11,002 bases of DNA from Pseudomonadota bacterium. Lineage in GTDB: Bacteria; Desulfobacterota; Desulfobacteria; Desulfobacterales; Desulfobacteraceae. Position 1 is the first letter of the stretch; the number at the start of each line of letters is the position of its first letter. The notes beneath the pieces are model-generated. The model saw nothing but the letters and a program-made list of their open reading frames with translations. It had not been told where the DNA came from and did no database searches. Location of the stretch: NCBI GenBank assembly GCA_018816605.1, contig JAHIVS010000200.1, positions 1 to 11,002 on the forward strand, read 5' to 3'. Positions 148 through 11,002 of this stretch are shown in pieces. The position numbers and the translations under genes are program-made.

Positions 148-169
148 GTAGCATGTTTTGGTTTGCTAC
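148..169. repeat. Short inverted repeat (possible hairpin) ahead of the transposase
   Basis: GTAGCA at 148-153 is exactly complementary to TGCTAC at 164-169, with a 10-base loop, and is followed by a T-rich stretch. It could be a weak terminator for the gene ending at 104 or part of the left end of the IS element. The stem is only six pairs, so chance is possible. Confidence 0.3.
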
Positions 170-202
170 ACCGTCTTTTATTTTCTTTGTGTTTATTTTA
201 TG

Positions 203-214
203 CAACAATTGTTG
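203..214. repeat. 12-bp perfect palindrome CAACAATTGTTG
   Basis: CAACAATTGTTG reads the same on both strands. It lies in AT-rich DNA about 100 bases before the likely transposase start, where an operator or an element-end structure could sit. There is no direct evidence for either role. Confidence 0.35.
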
Positions 215-310
215 TATATTTTCAACAAGTGTTCTAGCTCCATCCTGCACACAAATTCTGATTTTTCTTTTGGTATGTCTAAAAATTTTATCACCATTAC
301 CGGTTTCAAT

Positions 311-1659
311 ATGGCCCAAACAGCAACACATAATTTTGATGTTTACCAGCCCCGTAATCCCAAGGCAAGTGCATACTACAAATGTGTTGAAAATCACTTT
401 GAAAATCTGGAACGCGCTTGGGACGACATGTATGCACCCCGGTATGGATTCTGGCGGACATATGTCATGACCGTGATCTATAAATACCTGGATTGTGGTG
501 ATCTTCATATGGGATTCGCCCGGGTTCAATGTGAAAAATGCGGCCATGAGTATCTCCTTGCATTCTCTTGCAAGCGCAGGCAGTTTTGTCCCTCTTGTCA
601 TCAAAAAAGAGTGATTGAGTATGGAGAATGGTTGCTCACTAACGTCCTCAAGGATGTTCCACACCGCCAGTGGGTATTCAGTATTCCCAAAAGACTGCGG
701 ATTTATTTTCTCTTTGACAGAAAGCTGTTGGCAAAATTATCGATTTGTGCCTGGAAGGTTATCAAGGCATATTTGAAAGCTGCAGTATCTGATGACAGTG
801 CTGTTCCTGGAGCCAGCATTGCTGTTCAGACTTATGGCGACTTTTTAAACTTTAATCCCCATCTGCATGCCATTGTGTCTGATGGATGTTTTTTGAATGA
901 CGGTGACTTTCATATGGCACCGGGATTCATGCTGGAAGACCTGGAAGAAATTTTTCAGTATGAAGTGCTCACGATGCTCAAAAAAGAGGATAAAATAACG
1001 GATGCCGTTATTGAGAATATGCTTTCATGGCGCCATTCAGGTTTCCATGTTTATATCGGAGGCAAAATTTTTTCCGATGATAACGCAGGACTTGGAAATC
1101 TTGCCCGGTACATCATCCGGGCCTGTTTTGAGCGCTGACGCTTCACTTCGTGCCTCAGGAACGCATGGTCTACATCCCGGAGCAAGATTCCCATGACAGT
1201 ACCGCCAAGGTCGTATACACCTCGAAAGACCGCAAGTCCCGGAAAACTTTTAATGCTATGGACTGGCTGGTCAGGCTGGTCAGGCTGGTCAGGCTGGTTA
1301 AGCATATACCTGGCCGATATGAGCAGGCGGTCCGATACTACGGTTATTATTCGAACAAATCCCGGGGGATGAGGAAAAAGGCGGAAACGGATGATGACAT
1401 TCCTGCTGTTATTCCAAATGAAATGTCATCCAAAAAATCCCGGCGGAACTGGGCCAGGTTAATCCAGAAAATTTATGAAACAGACCCACTGATCTGTCCT
1501 AAATGCTGGGGACAGATGCACATCATCAGCTTCATCAAAGAACTTGACATCATCGAAAAAATTCTGCATCATCTTGGGCTTTGGGATATCCGTAACCATG
1601 ATCCGCCGCGACCTGTCACCTCCGACTATATTCCTGATTTGGGTTTACAATTTTTCTGA
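311..1659 (+). pseudogene. IS91-family HUH transposase, frameshifted
   Basis: This is a rolling-circle transposase of the IS91 type. From the ATG at 311 the first part has a zinc-binding domain (Cys74, Cys77, Cys87, Cys93, Cys96) and the HUH metal-binding motif in NPHLHAIVSDG (His184 and His186). The frame ends at TGA 1136-1138, after RYIIRACFER. The rest of the protein lies one frame back from about 1153 and holds PQERM, the tyrosine motif VRYYGYYSN that should carry the DNA-linked tyrosine, and a C-terminal CPKC knuckle, stopping at 1657-1659. A 23-bp segment at 1130-1152 separates Phe from Pro-Gln-Glu-Arg-Met, which family members place almost adjacent, and this accounts for the frameshift. 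The frame is open back to 158, but 311 matches where family proteins begin. Neither 311 nor 275 has a clear ribosome site. The protein is probably inactive unless frameshifting rescues it. Confidence 0.85.
1266..1299 (+). repeat. 9-bp tandem repeat (GCTGGTCAG, ~3.8 copies) inside the transposase
   Basis: Three exact copies of GCTGGTCAG (1266-1274, 1275-1283, 1284-1292) and a partial fourth (1293-1299) encode WLVRLVRLVRLVKHIP. From memory of IS91 transposases, about eight residues normally separate the WL from the conserved IP. With a single VRL unit the spacing here would be eight, so the repeat seems to have grown by two units, in frame. Confidence 0.85.
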
Positions 1660-1801: not shown

Positions 1802-3190
1802 CTATCTGAAGATGGCCTTCATTATTTTGAGTTTGCCCTTGTAGGGCGGGTAGATCAGGGGAAGGTCCAGCCAGGTGGCGGTGGGGGCCTGGTACAGGGC
1901 CTTTTGGTGGGAAAACCGCGTGAATCCGTCAAAGCCGTGGTAATGTCCCATGCCTGAACTGCCCAGGCCGCCAAAGGGCAGGTAGGGGTTGCCCAGGTGC
2001 TGGATGCAGTGGTTGACGCAGCCCCCGCCAAAGGGGATCCGCAAGACCAGTTCATCCCGGATCTGCCGGTTCTCGGTGAACAGGTAGAGGGCCAGGGGAT
2101 GCTGGGGCAGGGCCCCGATGGTCTGATAGACCTGGTCCAGGTCGTTGTAGGTCATCACCGGCAGGACCGGGCCGAAGATCTCCTCCTTCATCACTGGATC
2201 ATCCAGGCTGACCTTGGCCATGACCGTGGGGCCGATGTACCGGGTGGCCTCGTCATGGTCCCCGCCGATGACCACCTTTTCCGGGTCAATGAGGGAGACC
2301 AGGCGGCGGTGGTGGGCCACATTCACGATGCGGCCGAAGTCCGGGCTCTGGGACGGGTTGTCCCCGTATAGGGCCTGGACCCGTTTGCTCAGCTTGTCGA
2401 TAAAGGGCTGCGCCACATCCTGGTGGACCAGGACATAATCCGGGGCCACACAGGTCTGGCCTGTATTGAGGAATTTCCCGTAGGCAATGCGCCGCACCGC
2501 TGTCTCCAGGTTGGCGTCGTTGTGGATGATGCAGGGGCTTTTGCCGCCCAGTTCCAGGGTCACGGGGGTCAGGTGCTTGGCCGCGGCCTCAAGGACGATC
2601 CCCCCCACCCGGGTGGAGCCCGTAAAAAAGATATGGTCGAATTTCTGGGTCAGGAGCATCTGGGTTTCTTTCACCTCGCCAGGCACATAGGCTACATGCT
2701 CGGGCCTGAAGCAGTCGTTGATGAGATCCTGGATCACCCGGCTCACGTTGGGGGTAAGTTCCGACGTCTTGACCACTGCGGTGTTGCCGGCGGCAATGGC
2801 TGCGATGAGCGGTGAAAAGGTGCTCTGCATGGGATAGTTGAACGGCGCGATGATCAGGTTCACGCCCAAAGGGGTGTAGTGGACCTTGCTGGTCCCGGGC
2901 AAAAGGTAAAAGGGGGTCATCTTCCATTTGACGCCCATCCATTTCTTCAGGGACTTCATGGTCCGGGTCAGCTCATGGCGGATGAACCCGGTTTCCGTGA
3001 TAAAGGACTCATACACCGGTTTGCCCAGATCGGCCTTAAGGGCGTCATGAAAGGGCTGCTCATGGCGGCAAACGCTCTCCTTGAGGGTTTTCAGGGCGTT
3101 GAGCCTGAACTCATGGCCCAGGGTGGCATGGGTGTTGAAAAAGGTGCGCTGGTTTTCGACGATGTGGTGGATCTGGCTCTGGGTGATCAT
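1802..3190 (-). CDS. NAD(P)-dependent aldehyde dehydrogenase, class 3 type (ALDH3-like)
   Basis: It oxidises an aldehyde to the acid with NAD(P)+. The 462-residue protein has every catalytic landmark of the superfamily: Asn118 in APFNYP, the nucleotide-binding FTGSTRVG (190-197), Glu213 in LELGGK, the nucleophile Cys247 in NTGQTC, and Glu337 in EEIFGP. Its length, and the C-terminal PFGGLGSSGMG...YHG and YPPY segments, fit the short class 3 group, which includes fatty and aromatic aldehyde dehydrogenases. There is no obvious C-terminal membrane anchor. AAGGAG lies 5 bases before the ATG at 3190. It is the last gene of the minus-strand operon, 36 bp after the GRE activase, so the likely substrate is an aldehyde released by the GRE. 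By eye its GC content is clearly higher than that of the activase and GRE, which suggests a separate origin. The class call is firm; the substrate is inferred. Confidence 0.93.
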   Translation of the reverse strand: MITQSQIHHIVENQRTFFNTHATLGHEFRLNALKTLKESVCRHEQPFHDALKADLGKPVYESFITETGFIRHELTRTMKSLKKWMGVKWKMTPFYLLPGTSKVHYTPLGVNLIIAPFNYPMQSTFSPLIAAIAAGNTAVVKTSELTPNVSRVIQDLINDCFRPEHVAYVPGEVKETQMLLTQKFDHIFFTGSTRVGGIVLEAAAKHLTPVTLELGGKSPCIIHNDANLETAVRRIAYGKFLNTGQTCVAPDYVLVHQDVAQPFIDKLSKRVQALYGDNPSQSPDFGRIVNVAHHRRLVSLIDPEKVVIGGDHDEATRYIGPTVMAKVSLDDPVMKEEIFGPVLPVMTYNDLDQVYQTIGALPQHPLALYLFTENRQIRDELVLRIPFGGGCVNHCIQHLGNPYLPFGGLGSSGMGHYHGFDGFTRFSHQKALYQAPTATWLDLPLIYPPYKGKLKIMKAIFR

Positions 3191-3226: not shown

Positions 3227-4147
3227 TCAGGAAGAAACGATGGTTATTCCTTCCCTTTTGAACAGTGATCGAATTGCTTCATAGTGTTTTGAACTGTAAA
3301 AGTCCCTTAGTTTGGATGAAGGCCCTGGCTTGTCAGGGATGCCGAGTTGGTCACATTTATCGATCCAGATCGGATTGTTCCCCAGCAGGGACGCTTTTTG
3401 AACCCCGTGTCTGGTGTAAAGACCGACAAGTTCCGCAATTTGGGCATCGCTGTCCGTAATCCCCGGTATCAATGGCGTTCGTGGCAGAAACGTCACGTTT
3501 CCGGCGGCTGCTTGCCCACAGAGCCATGCAAAATTTTCCAGTATTACATCGTTGGAAATGCCGCAGTGGTCCTGATGTTTTTTTGGGTCCACAATTTTGA
3601 TGTCCATGTAGATGGTATCGATCCACGGAAAGATCAAGCGTTCAAAGTGGTCCCTGTCAAAATGACCGCAGGTTTCAAGCAGAGTGTGCAGCCCCTCTTC
3701 CTTGAATCGCCTCAGGAGTGCGGCGGCAAATTCCATGAACATGGTCGGCTCTCCGCCGGAAAGGGTGACGCCGCCTCCCGAAGTGTCAAAAAAGGATCTG
3801 TAGCGCAGCACTTTGGGCACAATTTCATCAACGGTCATTGCCTTTCCCACCTTTTTCAAGGCGTTGGCAGGGCAGATTTCCACGCAGGCGAAGCAAAGGG
3901 AACAGGCCTTCCGATCCATAAAAAACCTGTTCCCGGATATGGCCTGTTCCGGGCAAATTTCCACACAGGAGCCGCATTTGATGCATTTCTCCCTTTCCCA
4001 GGACAATTCTGCCGTGGGCCTTTGACTCTCCGGATTCTGGCACCAACTACAGCGCAGGGGGCAGCCCTTGATAAAGACCACCGAGCGAATCCCGGGCCCG
4101 TCGTCCAGGCTGTGCCCTTTGATATCAATGATGAGGGGATGCTTCAT
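3227..4147 (-). CDS. Glycyl radical enzyme activating enzyme (radical SAM)
   Basis: It uses S-adenosylmethionine and a [4Fe-4S] cluster to abstract hydrogen from the radical glycine of its partner GRE. The 306-residue protein shows the radical SAM motif C29-x3-C33-x2-C36 (GCPLRCSWC). Two ferredoxin-type cluster motifs follow, C55/C58/C61/C65 and C82/C85/C88/C92, then GGGVTLSGGEP (SGGEP at 130-134). The extra 8Fe ferredoxin insert is usual for activases of diol-dehydratase, decarboxylase and arylsuccinate-type GREs and is absent from the pyruvate formate-lyase activase. I chose ATG 4147 (MKHPLIID), four bases after the GRE stop. The frame extends to a TTG at 4162 overlapping the GRE, but family proteins begin near the chosen start. 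There is no strong ribosome site, so translation is probably coupled to the GRE. Confidence 0.95.
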   Translation of the reverse strand: MKHPLIIDIKGHSLDDGPGIRSVVFIKGCPLRCSWCQNPESQRPTAELSWEREKCIKCGSCVEICPEQAISGNRFFMDRKACSLCFACVEICPANALKKVGKAMTVDEIVPKVLRYRSFFDTSGGGVTLSGGEPTMFMEFAAALLRRFKEEGLHTLLETCGHFDRDHFERLIFPWIDTIYMDIKIVDPKKHQDHCGISNDVILENFAWLCGQAAAGNVTFLPRTPLIPGITDSDAQIAELVGLYTRHGVQKASLLGNNPIWIDKCDQLGIPDKPGPSSKLRDFYSSKHYEAIRSLFKREGITIVSS

Positions 4148-4151
4148 TGGT

Positions 4152-7100
4152 CTATAATCCAAACTCGCTGCGACGGATCAACTCCAACTGAAGGTCCCGC
4201 TGCAACTGGACAAAATAGCCGCAATAACCCGAAATCCTCACAAGGAGATCTGCATAGTGCTCTGGATTGGCCATGGCGTCCTTCAGGGTGTCTGTATCGA
4301 CCACATTGTACTGGATCTGCATCCCCCCTTTTTTAAAGTAGGTCTGGACGTAATCCGCCATCCGACTGATTGTCTGATCATGGGTGTCTTTTGCCGAGGG
4401 GACCACCCGCACGTTAAAAGCGATATTATTGTCCAGGGTTGTGGGATCCAATTGGGCCACATCCAGCAGATTATCCAGAATATTGTTCGATGCACTCGCA
4501 TGGGGTGTTAAACCCGGGGTAAAAGGCTCTCCCTTGAGCCTGCCCGAAGGAGAGGCGCTGGAAACCCTGCCGTAAACCGAATGATTATTCATGGTCCACC
4601 ATCCGGTTGCATAATGGCCACCTCGGTAGTTTCGGTGATTCCTGTAATAATCGTTGCACATTTTTGTGACCCGATTTGCCATGGCCACTGCCTCTGGATT
4701 TCCGGAACCAAAGCGAGAAACCCTGTTTTTCACCAATGCATGAATCTTTTCAAATCCCTCATAATTGCTATCGATTGCCTGCTTCAACTCCGGGAAGGTC
4801 ACCATCTTTTTATCGAAAACCAAGGTCCTGATGGCCATCAGGGAATCCACCACGTCTGCCAGCCCAATAATTGCAACCCCGGTGGAATTGTACTTGGCAC
4901 CCCCTCGGGTCATCCCCCTGCCGGTTTTTATACACCCCTCAATGGAAGCCGACAACAAAGGGGCCGGCATGTGTTTCTGGTGGATGATCCCCAACTGGTT
5001 ATTGCCGATAACCGATTGCTCGATGATGAACCGGCTCTGTTCGTCAAAGGCAGCCCAGAACGCCTCGAAGGACTGGAAATCGCCTTTGTCGATCCGCCCT
5101 GTTTCCGGGCCAAGGCACCAGTTCACCAGCGGATGATACCCGTTGTTCATGGCCATCTCAAACGGCGCCATCAGGTTGACCTCCAGTGAGGATGTTGCAG
5201 AGCAGTGCTTTCCCGGGAGGGAAGGCTCAACACACCCGGTGGGAGTCCAGCCCCGGATATCCTCCAATGCCCAGGTTGCGTTGGCACTCAAGGCGGTGAT
5301 CATGGCGTCATCACTGTGAATACATGGTGTTGCACCGGTTGTGTAGTTCACTTCGCAAACCCGCTTCAAAAAATCACGGCTGTTGACACCGATTTTATAA
5401 CGGGCATGACAGTTCGGGTCCTGCAAGGCCAGCATTTCAATTACCTTGAGGATGATATAGGACATATCATTCACGGCGTCGGTTCCGTCCGCTTTTACGC
5501 CTCCTACTGTAATGGTCGTGTTCGGCGGGGCGCCTGAGTTCTGCCATTCTCCGATCTCCGGAGACGCAATCAAGTGACTGGCCAGTCTGAAAAACAGGCA
5601 TCCCATAATCTCGATAACATTTTTTACATAGGCATCCCTCTCGTTTTGTGTTTTCAAGGCCGCCATCTCGGCCTCAAAGAAGGGTTGCAGAATTTGATCA
5701 AGCCTTCCCAGCATGGGGCCGTCGTCCATGTTTTCAAGTCCCAGGCAAATATGCATAATCCAGAGGGTTTGAACCGCCTCAATCAACGTTCGAGCCGGAT
5801 ATTCAGGGACATGTTCAAGCCTTTTTGCTAGCTGTTCCAGTTCGACCCTGCGTTGGGGATGCGATTGGGTTGCCGCTTCTTTTCGAGCCTGCTGTGCCAG
5901 GTTACGGGCATAGGCCCTGGCGGCATCCAGACCGATCTTCATGGCGTTTAGGGTGTTGACCTTCTCCTCATCGGCATTGGGGTCATTCCTGAGTTCAGCA
6001 TCAATCGTAGCTTCCATCCCTTTGAGGCCCTTGAGGACAAAATTGTCATATCCTGGACTGATTTCGCTTTGAGACACAAATTTCCAGAAGAAGATCGCAA
6101 ACCAGCGGTCCTGGATCTGTGCCGGTAATGAGTTGTCAAAATCCTTTTTCCACCATTGCAGTAAATTCCGGTCCGCCCAGAACGGCAGAACGTGGTGATG
6201 CATGACCCAGGCAGTTTCCTGGCTTATCTGGTGAGGTCGAAGTTCCCGTTTGTCTATTGTTTTCAGCTCCGGCCACATCAAATGGCCCGCCGTATGAGGG
6301 TGGGTTACGGTCCCGGAAATTGGATTCGGGGTATAGGTTCCCGCCAGCAAATCGTTTTTCCGAATCAGGGCCTGCCGGTTGGACATCAGGTAATGAAAAC
6401 TTTCTGCTCTACGCAGATTGGGCTCCCATTCTTCGCCTGATTTTTTAGTTTCATATCCGTTCTCAATAAAGAAATCGGTCAACAGCTTTCCGTACTCAGC
6501 CGTCAGTTCTGTTTTGGTGTGAAACAACTCCTCACGAAATGTTTCGATCCGTGGAAAATCCTCCAGACCGTATTCCTGCAGATAGGGATTCTTCAACCAT
6601 CTAACGCCGGGATCTCTTTTCTCTGCTTTCAACCGCTGGGAACGTCGTTTCTTCTTTTCAGCTCTTCCACAGGTCGACACCCCTTTTGCGGCTTTCCTGG
6701 CCAGACTGCGATTTTCACCAATTGCCTGCTTCTGGGATTTAAACTCATCCTTTAAAAGGACAACATTCAGCAGGTAAAAGAAATAATAGCCCAGGGTCAT
6801 ATTGCCGTGAATCCACATCCGACCTTCCAACATCATGGCATTGGCTTGGTTTTTGCCGGCGTTGAGAAAGTTCATGATGCAATTGGCCGTTTGAAAACAG
6901 AATGTTGCATCGACCCTGGCCGGTATGGAATCCTGGATGACCATCGTTCCATCTTTAATGAGGACACCAACCGCCACCTTGCCGTCCATGGATTTAAAAA
7001 CGACATGGGCATTGATCCAGCCCTGGGTTCCCATCAGCTCTTTTTGAAGTTCCGCGTTAGAGTTGTATCTGGCGGCAATAAACCGAAGAAAACCCAGCAA

Positions 7101-7265
7101 TAGCCATTGCACATTTCCAACCACTTTCCCCAAAACATACCGGGAAATGCCCGATGCCATTTGGGGATATCCGACAAGGCGGTCAAACATCGTAACCTTG
7201 CAGACCTGCTTCAAATTATCACGTTTTTCGGAAAATGCTGATTGCTCACTGGTCGCTGTTGTCAT
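4152..7265 (-). CDS. Glycyl radical enzyme with N-terminal SCP2-like lipid-binding domain
   Basis: The 1037-residue protein is about 200 residues longer than usual GREs. Residues ~65-175 read as an SCP2-type lipid-binding fold, with MDGKVAVGVLIKDG strands, a 'T-x-C-F-Q-T-A-N-C-I' helix start, then MLEGRMWIHGN and a hydrophobic final helix. A basic linker follows (~176-222, with KKKRR). The GRE part runs from ~223: FREELFHT, LLAGTYTPNP, the GLKGMEATIDAEL helix, GGVKADGTDAVNDMSY, the thiyl site GCVEP (Cys678, Glu680), TRGGAKYNSTGV, and the glycyl radical site RISGYCGYF (Gly1013, 25 residues from the end). Cys-x-Glu is the arrangement of dehydratase, lyase and decarboxylase GREs, where Glu acts as a base. 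Pyruvate formate-lyase has Cys-Cys instead. ATG 7265 has GGAGGG four bases upstream. A TTG four codons earlier is part of that ribosome site and is not the start. The substrate is unknown; a hydrophobic one is inferred. Confidence 0.93.
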   Translation of the reverse strand: MTTATSEQSAFSEKRDNLKQVCKVTMFDRLVGYPQMASGISRYVLGKVVGNVQWLLLGFLRFIAARYNSNAELQKELMGTQGWINAHVVFKSMDGKVAVGVLIKDGTMVIQDSIPARVDATFCFQTANCIMNFLNAGKNQANAMMLEGRMWIHGNMTLGYYFFYLLNVVLLKDEFKSQKQAIGENRSLARKAAKGVSTCGRAEKKKRRSQRLKAEKRDPGVRWLKNPYLQEYGLEDFPRIETFREELFHTKTELTAEYGKLLTDFFIENGYETKKSGEEWEPNLRRAESFHYLMSNRQALIRKNDLLAGTYTPNPISGTVTHPHTAGHLMWPELKTIDKRELRPHQISQETAWVMHHHVLPFWADRNLLQWWKKDFDNSLPAQIQDRWFAIFFWKFVSQSEISPGYDNFVLKGLKGMEATIDAELRNDPNADEEKVNTLNAMKIGLDAARAYARNLAQQARKEAATQSHPQRRVELEQLAKRLEHVPEYPARTLIEAVQTLWIMHICLGLENMDDGPMLGRLDQILQPFFEAEMAALKTQNERDAYVKNVIEIMGCLFFRLASHLIASPEIGEWQNSGAPPNTTITVGGVKADGTDAVNDMSYIILKVIEMLALQDPNCHARYKIGVNSRDFLKRVCEVNYTTGATPCIHSDDAMITALSANATWALEDIRGWTPTGCVEPSLPGKHCSATSSLEVNLMAPFEMAMNNGYHPLVNWCLGPETGRIDKGDFQSFEAFWAAFDEQSRFIIEQSVIGNNQLGIIHQKHMPAPLLSASIEGCIKTGRGMTRGGAKYNSTGVAIIGLADVVDSLMAIRTLVFDKKMVTFPELKQAIDSNYEGFEKIHALVKNRVSRFGSGNPEAVAMANRVTKMCNDYYRNHRNYRGGHYATGWWTMNNHSVYGRVSSASPSGRLKGEPFTPGLTPHASASNNILDNLLDVAQLDPTTLDNNIAFNVRVVPSAKDTHDQTISRMADYVQTYFKKGGMQIQYNVVDTDTLKDAMANPEHYADLLVRISGYCGYFVQLQRDLQLELIRRSEFGL

Positions 7266-7441
7266 CCTGCCCTCCAAGTTTAATAGTGGATCAAAGGTTT
7301 TTTTCCCGGCAATGAATGTGATGATTATTATATATCAATGGTGAAATAGATAGATGAAGACAGGACAATAGATATGAAATCAGGCCAAAATCATGCATCG
7401 GAAAAAGTTGTTCCAGTGCCTAGTAAAAACTCTGGAGAGGA
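7230..7441. repeat. Direct repeat copy A of the divergent control region
   Basis: This segment aligns with 9037-9261 in the same orientation, with a limited number of substitutions, two one-base gaps and one larger gap of about 14 bases. It covers the first codons of the GRE, its ribosome site, the AT-rich divergent promoter core and the first ~28 codons of the regulator. The match decays on both sides: into GRE coding sequence on the left and near the 3' end of the radical SAM gene on the right. Confidence 0.92.
7266..7373 (-). promoter_or_regulatory. GRE promoter and leader region (inner copy of the duplicated control region)
   Basis: This segment lies between the GRE start and a dead regulator start. 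It holds the strong ribosome site GGAGGG (7270-7275, minus strand) and, on the minus strand, TATAAT at 7332-7327, which would put transcription about 55 bases before the ATG. No good -35 box lies at the right distance, as expected of an activator-dependent promoter. Most of it is identical to 9072-9178. Bases kept in both copies are the best candidates for the regulator's binding sites. Confidence 0.5.
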
Positions 7442-7479: not shown

Positions 7480-9018
7480 TCAGGATGTCATTCCGGAAAG
7501 CTGGGTCTGGATCTGATCTCTGACGATCTTTCGGTACGCCATGAAGTGTTCCAGCTGGGCCAGGACACTTAAAAAACTGACCAGTCCGCCTGGATTTTCC
7601 TTAAGGACGCTGAGCAGGCGCGTCCAGAATTTTTTCCTGTAGGGGTATCGGATGCCCAGGCGCCACAGGAGGATGAACATGGCTTTGATGTCCTGGGCTT
7701 TGATTTTATTGTGCTCACGGTTTTTCGGCGGGAACTTCACCTTTCCTAAAATTTTGTAACAGCGGTATACCCTGTCGATGTAAGCGACAGGGTCGTATAG
7801 CTTCCAGAAGCCGTCCATGAATTCCCTGGCGATGTCATCCACCGGGCGGGAGGGCGCAAAGTTGATCAGGGTGGTATAACTGATGTCCCCGGACCGGTCC
7901 GACATCCGTCCTTCCGCCAGGAGGCGTTTCTCAAGGGCGGTGCCGGGCAGGACCTGGAGCATGCTGAAGGCGGCGATGGGAATGGCGGTCTCTTCCACAA
8001 AGGAGACGATCCGTTCCCCGGCCCCCGGGGCTTCGTTGTCGAATCCGATGATGAATCCGGCCATGACCCGGATGCCTGCGTCCATGATCTTCCGGACCGA
8101 GTCCTGCAATGCCTCTCTTGTATTCTGGGTTTTGCCGGTAAGCTTGAGGCTCCCCTCATCCGGGGTTTCAATGCCCACAAATACCGATCCGAAGTTGCAG
8201 AGCACCATGAAGTCCATGAGGTCCCGGTCCGCGGCCAGGTTCACGGAGGCCTCCGTGTTAAAGGAGAACGGGTATCCCTTTTTCACCATCCAGGGGTGAA
8301 GCGCGTTGAGAAGTTCCTTTACCCGCGCCTTGTTCCCGATAAAGTTGTCATCCACCAGGAAGACCATGTCCCGCCATCCCAGGTCATAGAGCAGGTCAAG
8401 TTCGGCCAGGACCTGGGCGTTGGACTTGGTCCTGACCTTCCGGCCGTAGAGCACGATAATATCGCAAAATTCACAATTGAAGGGGCAGCCCCTGGAGAAC
8501 TGGACCGGCATGACCGAATAGGCATCCATATCCAGAAGGTCGTAGCGGGGCAGGGGGGCTATAGACATGTCCGGCTTTTCGCCGTCCGCGCTGAAGTGCC
8601 CCGAGGTCTGCCCCTGCTTGAGGGCCCGGACCAGGAGGGGGATAGTGAGTTCTCCCTCGTCCCTGACAATGAAGTCTGCACCGGCCGCCACAAAGCGTTC
8701 CGGGGAAGAGGAGACATAGGGACCGCCGACGACCACCAGCTTTCCAAACGCCTTGGCTGCCTTGATCTGTGCCGTGAAATCCGCTCTCTGGGCAATCATC
8801 CCCGAGATCATGACCAGGTCGGTCCGGGCCCACTCCTTCGTTGAGACCTCCCTGATATTCCGGTCCACCAGGGTGACCTCCCAGTCCTTGGGCAGCATGG
8901 CGGCAATGGTAATCAGCCCCAAGGGGGGCATGAAGGCTTTTTTGCCCTTCAGGGCGATGGTCTTGTCAAAGGACCAGAAACTTGGGGGAAACTTGGGGTA
9001 GAGCAGCAGGATATTCAT
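7480..9018 (-). CDS. B12-binding radical SAM protein with DUF4070-like C-terminus (HpnP-like group)
   Basis: The 512-residue protein has an N-terminal cobalamin-binding-type Rossmann domain (~1-135, with PPLGLITIAAMLP and VVVGGPYVSSSPE). A radical SAM core follows, whose cluster motif is C178-x3-C182-x2-C185 in SRGCPFNCEFCDIIVLYGRK. A C-terminal region of the DUF4070 type completes it. The GCPFNCEFCDII...YGRKVRTK signature is that of the group containing the hopanoid C-2 methylase HpnP, which transfers methyl groups to unactivated carbons. Many relatives are uncharacterised, so a methylase role is only likely. The start ATG 9018 overlaps the stop of an 18-codon leader ORF (ATGA), and its stop lies 214 bp before the GRE start. 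Direct repeats flank it exactly, and it looks more GC-rich than the GRE. It may modify the GRE substrate, a membrane lipid or the GRE itself. Confidence 0.88.
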   Translation of the reverse strand: MNILLLYPKFPPSFWSFDKTIALKGKKAFMPPLGLITIAAMLPKDWEVTLVDRNIREVSTKEWARTDLVMISGMIAQRADFTAQIKAAKAFGKLVVVGGPYVSSSPERFVAAGADFIVRDEGELTIPLLVRALKQGQTSGHFSADGEKPDMSIAPLPRYDLLDMDAYSVMPVQFSRGCPFNCEFCDIIVLYGRKVRTKSNAQVLAELDLLYDLGWRDMVFLVDDNFIGNKARVKELLNALHPWMVKKGYPFSFNTEASVNLAADRDLMDFMVLCNFGSVFVGIETPDEGSLKLTGKTQNTREALQDSVRKIMDAGIRVMAGFIIGFDNEAPGAGERIVSFVEETAIPIAAFSMLQVLPGTALEKRLLAEGRMSDRSGDISYTTLINFAPSRPVDDIAREFMDGFWKLYDPVAYIDRVYRCYKILGKVKFPPKNREHNKIKAQDIKAMFILLWRLGIRYPYRKKFWTRLLSVLKENPGGLVSFLSVLAQLEHFMAYRKIVRDQIQTQLSGMTS

Positions 9019-9178: not shown

Positions 9179-10222
9179 ATGGAATCAGGCCAAAATCATG
9201 CATCGAAAAAAGTTGTCCCGGCCGCTGCGGCACAGTGGCTAGTGAAAACCCTGGAGAGGAGGGGAATTCCGCTTAAGAAAATACTGGGCAGCGTTTGCCT
9301 GGACAAAGACTGGTTGCATAACCCCGATGCCATTATCACCCCTGCCAATTTCTTGAAAATTGTAAAGAACGGGTTGACTCTCAGTGCTGATGAGGACCTT
9401 GGACTCAGAATCGGCAGGGAACAGAATTTAACGGGACTGGGTTTTTGGGGGTACGCCATCATGTGCAGCCATACCCTCAAGGAAGCTGCGGATGTTGCGG
9501 TCCAGTATTGGAAGGTGTCAGGAAGCCTGGTAGACATTGTCCGAAAATCTGAGGGCGATATTCAAATCTGGGAAATTCTGCCGCCATACCCGTATAAAGA
9601 ACCGTCCCTTTGGAGATATGCTGTTGAGGAAATGCTGTCCACCTGGTACAGTTCAACCTGTTTCCTTGCCGGCGGAAAACTTCCTTTGACAGAAATCCAT
9701 CTTTCCTATCCTGAACCTGGATACAGCCGTCTGTACCGGGAAATGTTCCAATGTCCGATATATTATGACCACACCATTGATTCTGTTTCCTTTCCCACAG
9801 AACTGCTTGATATTAGCATCTCAATGGGTCATGACCAGATGGCCGAGGTTTGCACCCAGCGGTGCGAGGAGTTGGCGGATAAATGGGGACGAAGGGATGA
9901 ACTTGTTGAATCCATTCGGACAATCGTGACCTCTTCTTCGTTCAGGGAGAGGAGACTGGAGGAGGTTGCCAGACAAATCGGCGTCAGCGGCAGGACCCTG
10001 CGGCGGAAATTAAAGGAGCAGGGAACGACCTTCCAGAAGGTGCTTGACGAGACACGGGCCGAATATGCAAAACACTACATTGAAAACACCGCCCTTACAA
10101 TTGAACAGATAGCCGATCGAATTGGATTTTCAGAAGCCACGAACTTCAGAGCGGCATTTAGAAAGTGGACAGGAATGACCACAGGAGGCTACCGGGAAAA
10201 AGCCAAAGGAAAAGAGTATTAG
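9179..10222 (+). CDS. AraC-family transcriptional regulator (arabinose-binding-domain type)
   Basis: The 347-residue protein has an N-terminal sensing domain of the kind found in OruR/ArgR-like AraC regulators (~20-215, with GFWGYAIMCSHTLKEA and later RLYREMF...FPTELLD). The C-terminal AraC double helix-turn-helix follows (~245-340): LEEVARQIGVSGRTLRRKLKEQG from ~260, then TIEQIADRIGFSEATNFRAAFRKWTG. ATG 9179 is supported by an upstream AGGA and by conservation of the same start in the decayed copy at 7374. It diverges from the leader/radical SAM/GRE operon and shares its duplicated control region, so it is very likely the operon's regulator, probably an activator responding to the pathway substrate. 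The inducer cannot be read from the sequence. Its GC content is closer to that of the GRE than of the radical SAM gene. Confidence 0.93.
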   Translation: MESGQNHASKKVVPAAAAQWLVKTLERRGIPLKKILGSVCLDKDWLHNPDAIITPANFLKIVKNGLTLSADEDLGLRIGREQNLTGLGFWGYAIMCSHTLKEAADVAVQYWKVSGSLVDIVRKSEGDIQIWEILPPYPYKEPSLWRYAVEEMLSTWYSSTCFLAGGKLPLTEIHLSYPEPGYSRLYREMFQCPIYYDHTIDSVSFPTELLDISISMGHDQMAEVCTQRCEELADKWGRRDELVESIRTIVTSSSFRERRLEEVARQIGVSGRTLRRKLKEQGTTFQKVLDETRAEYAKHYIENTALTIEQIADRIGFSEATNFRAAFRKWTGMTTGGYREKAKGKEY

Positions 10223-10405: not shown

Positions 10406-11002
10406 TCAGGACAATAGCTTATAAATGATCAATCCTTCATCCTTTCCCTTTACCTTGACCGGCTCCAACTGTTTGGTGACATAGGAGTCGGTTAGCAGGT
10501 TCTGAGTGGTTTGGCTCAGGAGGATGTCCGTCTCATATGTTTTGGCCAGTCCTTCAATGCGGGATGCGGTATTCACCGTATCTCCCACTAGGCCATAGGA
10601 CATTCTTTCCTGGCTACCGATATTGCCGGCAAGCACCGCTCCTGAATGGATACCGATCCCGTGTTCCAGGGGGGCAACCCCTTGTTTTTCAAGGGCTATA
10701 TTTAATTTTGCCAGCCGTTCTCTCATTTCCAGGGCCGTTTGTACCGCCATTTCCGGATGATCTTCAAACCCCACGGGTGCCCCGAAAACAGCCTCGATCT
10801 CATCTCCTACATATTGAAGGATAAGTCCCTTGTGTGCTTTAACGGCCAGAGTCATTTCATTAAAATACTGATTTAAAATTTTTACCACCTGTCGGGGATG
10901 ATTTTTTTCCACAAGCCCCGTAAAATTCCTCAGATCGGAAAAAAGCAGTGTTACCCTCTTCATCTCGCCCTCCATGGAGATTCTTCCGGACATGATTTCA
11001 TC
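10406..11002 (-). CDS. Class III adenylate/guanylate cyclase, C-terminal catalytic domain (partial)
   Basis: The domain makes a cyclic nucleotide from a nucleoside triphosphate. Visible landmarks are the first metal aspartate in LLFSDLRNFT, the second in QYVGDEIEAVFGAP, the GIGIHSGAVLAGNIGS turn and the GDTVNTASRIE motif with the transition-state Asn and Arg. The frame stays open to the window edge (Asp-Glu-Ile before Met at 10993). Family members usually have this segment directly after a sensor or HAMP region, so the true start lies beyond the window and Met 10993 is internal. The usual purine-specifying lysine just before the YVGD segment is glutamine here, as I recall for some deltaproteobacterial cyclases, so ATP versus GTP cannot be assigned. 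It converges on the AraC regulator and shows no link to the GRE operon. Confidence 0.92.
   Translation of the reverse strand, partial: DEIMSGRISMEGEMKRVTLLFSDLRNFTGLVEKNHPRQVVKILNQYFNEMTLAVKAHKGLILQYVGDEIEAVFGAPVGFEDHPEMAVQTALEMRERLAKLNIALEKQGVAPLEHGIGIHSGAVLAGNIGSQERMSYGLVGDTVNTASRIEGLAKTYETDILLSQTTQNLLTDSYVTKQLEPVKVKGKDEGLIIYKLLS

Follow-up and report, generated by a model that had tools for sequence, protein, structure and literature searches.

An SCP2-like domain as the near-constant partner, fused or separate, of a group of glycyl radical enzymes

The small subunits of the glycyl radical enzymes (GREs) 4-hydroxyphenylacetate decarboxylase and benzylsuccinate synthase are iron-sulfur proteins and are not SCP2-like. 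To our knowledge, the characterised GREs use small molecules or, in the case of the alkylsuccinate synthases, hydrocarbons directly, and none of the SCP2-domain fusions known to us, such as MFE-2 and SCPx, is a radical enzyme. The subject of this work is a gene that joins an SCP2-like domain to a GRE and forms part of an 11,002-nucleotide (nt) stretch of DNA, contig JAHIVS010000200.1, analysed at its full length and referred to as the window. An initial annotation of this DNA named no characterised GRE of such architecture, and literature searches agree with it, since no description of a GRE or pyruvate formate-lyase (PFL) paired with SCP2, a sterol carrier protein or a lipid-binding domain was found. 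The pairing is not described in the accessible portions of PMC13101534 and PMC5606693, and that of PMC9172201 is unrelated to it. As detailed below, the SCP2 module accompanies a GRE superclade almost without exception, either fused to the enzyme or encoded beside it (split form).

For phylogenetic placement, 103 GRE cores were joined in a quick IQ-TREE tree with a midpoint root: 40 of the 107 fused ones (15 chosen by name, 25 randomly), 33 of the split form, and all but one of 31 others. The fused proteins fall into one group (n = 40, SH-aLRT 99) and the split ones into another (n = 33, SH-aLRT 91). Both, together with the long branch P0075, which is counted outside the fused group, make up a single group (SH-aLRT 100) apart from 29 other GREs, namely 28 from 18 genomes holding SCP2-GREs, and P0076. 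A core-only profile was also run against 395 genomes from one phylum (that of locus L018), and the two best candidates per genome were scored at E ≤1e-180. Every full-length GRE above 900 bits is accompanied by SCP2 (48 of 48; 33 in frames of at least 980 amino acids (aa) and 15 as a neighbouring gene), while the next full-length GREs, at 604–670 bits, have none (0 of 14); six partial hits, two with adjoining SCP2 and four without, are set aside from these counts. Although the profile seeds were SCP2-associated GREs, the gap of 250 bits, with no SCP2 in any of the 14 enzymes below it, indicates that the pairing belongs to the GRE group as such.

The fused form is widespread. A profile search returned 80 proteins, ten of which (P0053, P0072–P0074 and P0076–P0081) were left out of alignment A2, formed by the window protein and 69 relatives (70 rows; P0075 stands outside the residue counts made on them). 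At least 186 residues precede the catalytic core in 69 of the 70 rows, the exception being P0049 with 95; P0053 (782 aa, 64% identical), which was dropped before the tree, begins at the core. Genome contigs gave zero relatives in a first scan and hold 18 loci, including one of Desulfatibacillum alkenivorans DSM 16219. The locus titles name Desulfarculaceae, Desulfobacteraceae, Smithella, Spirochaetota, Eremiobacterota, SAR324 and others; a 4-kb contig labelled Mycobacterium (L014) is possibly a contaminant. The N-terminal profile has a match in 44 of the 395 genomes, in a frame of at least 440 aa in 26 and solely in small frames in 18, and in 68 of 291 genomes from the order of locus L005, a sample that overlaps with the former.

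The fusion gene of the window is genuine and unbroken (Table 1). An alternative TTG start at 7277 (open reading frame (ORF) 4152–7277) would give 1041 aa; the 1037 residues reported in the initial annotation are preferred because GGAGGG sits just 5' of the ATG at 7265. Unless stated otherwise, residues are given in the 1041 numbering (minus 4 for the ATG start). The relative P0002, 94% identical from end to end, is likewise 1037 aa long; the SCP2/GRE junction is accordingly free of a frameshift, a point that the same annotation had asked to be checked. The only Pfam matches at E ≤0.01 are PFL-like (243–903) and Gly_radical (920–1023). Together with the active-site Cys, the radical Gly and an adjoining radical SAM activase (TIGR02494, 278.6 bits, cut-off 174.35), they assign the protein, by sequence, to the GRE superfamily. 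Cys682, Glu684 and Pro685 are kept in 70 of 70 aligned rows and Gly1017 in 69, with a gap in the remaining one. Both the catalytic Cys-X-Glu motif and the loop of the glycyl radical are intact. In the whole-model fold search the top Z belongs to glycerol dehydratase 1r8w (46.6), and propanediol dehydratases and an Archaeoglobus GRE lie within 1 Z of it. The protein scores below the equivalog NCBIfam cut-offs for CutC (355.6 of 1050) and HypD (424.8 of 1100), below those for sulfopropanediol dehydratase, 4-hydroxyphenylacetate decarboxylase, indoleacetate decarboxylase and PFL, and below that of the PFL2-3 subfamily TIGR01774 (426.7 bits, cut-off 678.2). The residues of 1r8w that we take to be its glycerol contacts (H164, H281, S282, Y339 and D447) correspond to E405, D519, G520, N586 and S696 of the window protein, none of the five being kept. 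These positions are variable across the fused family; in the eight split GREs aligned, the His is kept at the first and the other four are changed.

Ahead of the barrel, family profiles, an AlphaFold model and fold searches of the PDB point to an SCP2-like domain. Helices are predicted at 56–73 and 75–81, strands at 90–96, 102–108, 111–115 and 124–128, helices at 131–139 and 142–150, a strand at 154–158 and a helix at 160–173, which follows the order helix, four strands, two helices, strand, helix of SCP2 structures. These elements, and an excess of basic over acidic residues in the linker 174–242 (19 K+R versus 9 D+E), bear out the SCP2 block at ~65–175 and the basic linker at ~176–222 of the initial annotation. 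The SCP2 match that it proposed stood in the family-profile and structural comparisons and failed in one respect: as a single sequence, the window protein reaches 13.7–14.0 bits (E 0.068–0.081) against Pfam SCP2 (PF02036), under the gathering cut-off of 21.3, and the domain is therefore filed as an SCP2-like fold and not as a PF02036 member. Among 24 family N-termini, 14 match SCP2 at E ≤1 (best 3.4e-4), any other family being matched by far fewer. A separate AlphaFold model of the domain was made because the whole-model search barely probed the N-terminus. With this model, all 32 Foldseek matches in the PDB at E ≤0.001 are SCP2 or alkylsulfatase-type chains, and strong matches to SCP2 structures were obtained by both Foldseek and VIA. 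A weak match of SFXNs to the window N-terminus (E 0.09) and a kinase fragment beside the SCP2 chains in the PDB matches (E 0.082) were not used as evidence. The single-sequence score could still be taken to mean that the N-terminus just prolongs an ordinary GRE or stems from faulty assembly, a reading that we consider scarcely credible. It is already contradicted by the colinearity of P0002, by the recurrence of domain, order and linker in many genomes, for which the initial annotation had suggested a search, and by the domain itself, which folds and matches SCP2 alone and exists elsewhere as its own gene; the frameshift variant of this proposal was rejected on the same grounds.

In the split form, which marks a sister GRE clade, a same-strand SCP2-like gene lies directly downstream of the GRE for 36 of 52 standalone genes, with gaps of -219 to +114 nt (the 52 exclude five short-frame fused-type matches, two in G656 and one each in G621, G612 and G638, with frames of 100–344 aa). 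The fused and separate modules are homologous as judged by profile comparison (HHalign probability 98.8, E 1.3e-16, 111 columns). Of 29 standalone proteins in alignment A8, which includes that of L038, 14 match Pfam SCP2 at E ≤1 (best 9.2e-6), and the runner-up family is matched by three. A database search with the standalone profile found 1047 relatives at E ≤10; the best 120 of them have E <1e-57, and their names include 'SCP2 domain-containing', 'UbiJ' and many 'hypothetical protein'. Since the domain is N-terminal when fused and its gene is downstream when separate, the fusion would not be a simple stop-codon loss.

As to what the module does, we lean, by a little, towards a glycyl radical eliminase of the dehydratase type with a dedicated SCP2-like carrier module, acting on an amphiphilic or long-chain substrate. 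The activase would place the radical on Gly1017, from which it would pass to Cys682; the conserved residues and the family fold suggest that Cys682 and Glu684 would then drive an elimination of the diol-dehydratase or lyase type. Most probably, the hydrophobic portion of the substrate sits in the SCP2-like domain, which would hand the polar head to the barrel, much as the corresponding domain of the alkylsulfatases goes with alkyl substrates. The product, an aldehyde or a ketone, would probably be consumed by neighbouring dehydrogenases, and long-chain vicinal diols or 1-O-alkylglycerols are offered, as a speculation, as candidate substrates. The strongest competing view makes the module a structural or assembly subunit, one that binds no lipid and stabilises the GRE or the GRE-activase complex, as might be proposed from the small subunits of 4-hydroxyphenylacetate decarboxylase and benzylsuccinate synthase. 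Such a role would suit the separate version, encoded like an accessory subunit straight after the GRE, and the conserved basic linker and helices, which could pack against the barrel; other functions also occur among SCP2-like folds, and Eis is one of the fold matches. Even so, most of the nearest folds come from domains for lipids or alkyl chains (alkylsulfatases, MFE-2 and an SCP2 from mosquito holding a C16 fatty acid), and SCP2-like proteins also accompany molybdopterin and thiamine enzymes (see below), which argues for a shared type of ligand and not for a GRE-specific scaffold. We regard the structural role as unlikely, if deserving of attention.

A third proposal is that the module chiefly tethers the enzyme to membranes, for membrane material or a membrane partner. 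It draws on the extra N-terminal helix of the window protein and on twin-arginine-like (Tat-like) signals (TRRxF...) in five of the 70 rows (P0057, P0062, P0063, P0064 and P0066), two of which (P0057 and P0063) have a lipobox-like Cys. The amphipathicity of the helix is, on the other hand, no better than that of shuffled sequences (0.45 of the shuffles were equally high), so that its reading as a membrane-binding amphipathic helix found no support, and a simple search, for the Tat motif alone, flagged none of the locus-derived members listed. As a general explanation, membrane tethering seems improbable. The five Tat-like GREs keep GCVEP and RVSGY, the three placed in the tree group together, and from their sequences they are possibly exported, membrane-anchored enzymes; the available part of PMC5606693 describes no Tat-exported GRE. 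Extending the carrier reading to the superclade, one may tentatively picture, with the balance of probability slightly against it, a large unrecognised GRE branch carrying out radical eliminations on lipid-like substrates delivered by SCP2, as a fused carrier or a downstream subunit, with one subclade exported folded by Tat as membrane lipoproteins.

Gene neighbourhoods bear on the type of substrate. Homologues of all four enzymes of the window (GRE, activase, aldehyde dehydrogenase (ALDH) and B12/radical SAM protein) stand in a row in L005. A tblastn recount places an activase homologue in 25 of the 42 loci with a fused GRE and in 33 of the 43 with a split one; for the 17 fused loci without it, the count refers to the fetched stretch, some stretches being short. 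In L144, the one split locus whose activase was scanned, the gene straight after the SCP2 gene encodes a radical SAM/ferredoxin protein. Clusters found within five genes of fused GREs, named from scanned members (for the short-chain dehydrogenases, L018), are TetR regulators (15 loci), short-chain dehydrogenases (7), AMP-binding ligases (4) and radical SAM proteins (5). The last cluster is loose, since the window B12/radical SAM protein was found by tblastn, at the threshold of the recount, in L005 alone; B12 binding is shown in the window and L005 only. An aldehyde ferredoxin oxidoreductase occurs in L004 and ALDH in the window and L005. Other single loci hold an acyl-CoA ligase and a phospholipase A1 (L018), a thiolase and a 3-hydroxyacyl-CoA dehydrogenase (L053, with similar genes in L054), and a 3-beta-HSD/epimerase-like protein with an alpha/beta hydrolase (L029). 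Such neighbours, beta-oxidation genes among them, speak for a hydrophobic substrate, and so does the recurrent association with SCP2. A pathway specific to steroids or hopanoids was not identified.

Some results run against this picture or limit it. Neighbourhoods vary, other loci have neighbours of no evident lipid link (fructose-bisphosphatase, transketolase, hydantoinase), and the lipid theme drawn from neighbour genes is suggestive only. In the precomputed Pfam list, none of the 80 profile-search proteins has SCP2. The standalone proteins of L037, L038, L015 and L027 have no Pfam match at E 1e-4, nor that of L173 at E 1e-3, and the top PDB sequence matches of the standalone profile are FtsH domains (E 0.02, not used as evidence). 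Finally, 16 of the 52 standalone genes have no GRE directly upstream: twelve are of a shorter group (117–147 aa), two of them (L164 and L172) near a different GRE, and of the other four, L152 starts at a distance of 192 nt from the end of its contig, only GRE remnants are left at L133 and L142, and L129 shows no GRE.

Table 1. Features of the window around the fusion gene (residues in the 1041 numbering unless stated)
Feature	Position	Strand	Remarks
SCP2-like/GRE fusion, 1037 aa	4152..7265	-	ATG at 7265
Extra N-terminal helix, residues 30-53	7119..7190	-	moderate confidence
SCP2-like domain, residues 56-173 (~52-169 from ATG)	6759..7112	-	predicted; profiles, fold searches
Conserved basic helical linker	6552..6758	-	C-terminal end DPGV..L..PYL..YGLEDFP
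PFL-like catalytic barrel	4569..6551	-	Pfam, fold search
Catalytic Cys682 and Glu684 (GCVEP)	5226..5234	-	family alignment
Glycine radical domain	4209..4520	-	Gly1017 of RISGY at 4227-4229
GRE activating enzyme, radical SAM and ferredoxin-type clusters	3227..4162	-	overlaps GRE gene by 11 nt
ALDH	1802..3190	-	36 nt past activase
B12-binding radical SAM protein with DUF4070	7480..9018	-	upstream of GRE; L005 operon homologue 70% identical
AraC-type regulator, divergent	9179..10222	+	Pfam/NCBIfam scans

The divergent AraC-type protein is a possible regulator of the operon. Elsewhere in the window, two adjoining ORFs at 158–1659 (+) resemble an interrupted insertion-sequence transposase, and the ORF at 10406–11002 (-) is similar in appearance to an adenylate/guanylate cyclase catalytic domain.

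SCP2-like modules also occur in other settings. The protein L167:609-3635:+ (1008 aa) matches the SCP2-like profile at its N-terminus (E 3e-6), and its remainder is a molybdopterin oxidoreductase, pyrogallol hydroxytransferase-like. In six loci (L015, L027, L138, L141, L170 and L173) a shorter SCP2-like protein (117–131 aa) stands beside a thiamine-pyrophosphate enzyme of 555–579 aa, with a zinc alcohol dehydrogenase (403–515 aa) one or two genes off and, in five of the six, TetR nearby; families were scanned in L173 and L015 and assigned by BLAST similarity in the other four. Both arrangements fit a general carrier role. At L164:4423-7376:+ and L172:1473-5010:-, the SCP2-like gene lies upstream (51 nt and 563 nt, respectively) of a low-scoring GRE (435–438 bits). 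The closest kin of this GRE lie outside the superclade, and the pair may represent a third kind of SCP2-GRE association. Four genomes (L087, L088, L089 and L090) have GREs of ~1100 aa with an N-terminus of ~280 aa, HDGPGIRTTIFFQGC, which resembles a fused activating enzyme. Two families recur beside split GREs: a DUF6765 protein (for instance L132:3415-4509:-), in 17 of 43 clustered loci, and a family (L037:9595-11507:+), in 21 of 43, whose three scanned members lack a Pfam match, one of them having a lipoprotein-like start. DUF6765 was not mentioned in the literature searched.

Overall, the interpretation given in the initial annotation is partly supported: the SCP2-type fold, its fusion to a GRE and the recurrence of that order elsewhere are borne out, and lipid binding by the domain and the suggested lipid, sterol or hopanoid-like substrate stay at the level of proposals. 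In this oxygen-sensitive enzyme, the SCP2 domain, which has the fold of animal lipid carriers and in close relatives is nearly always fused or encoded by the next gene, suggests an unstudied oxygen-free lipid chemistry. With a lipid-carrier module as its hallmark, such a branch of GREs would bring amphiphilic substrates into radical enzymology and, if the carrier reading is true, would open an anaerobic path for lipids to sediment bacteria that reduce sulfate or live syntrophically; extracytoplasmic GREs would follow from the reading of one subclade as Tat-exported. Because fused and separate forms alternate, the functional link can be put to the test in hosts with a name, for example Desulfatibacillum alkenivorans DSM 16219.

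With respect to known systems, the window enzyme differs from the B12-independent glycerol and 1,2-propanediol dehydratases, the GRE diol dehydratases, in its extra SCP2-like domain and in the loss of all five glycerol contacts. The type III alkylsulfatases SdsA1, SdsAP and Pisa1 also carry an SCP2-like domain, which in them is C-terminal and joined to metallo-beta-lactamase chemistry, whereas in the window GRE it is N-terminal. As in 4-hydroxyphenylacetate decarboxylase and benzylsuccinate synthase, the split version encodes a small protein beside the GRE; unlike those accessory subunits, the partner here is of the SCP2 fold, and one of the two clades carries it as part of the GRE chain.
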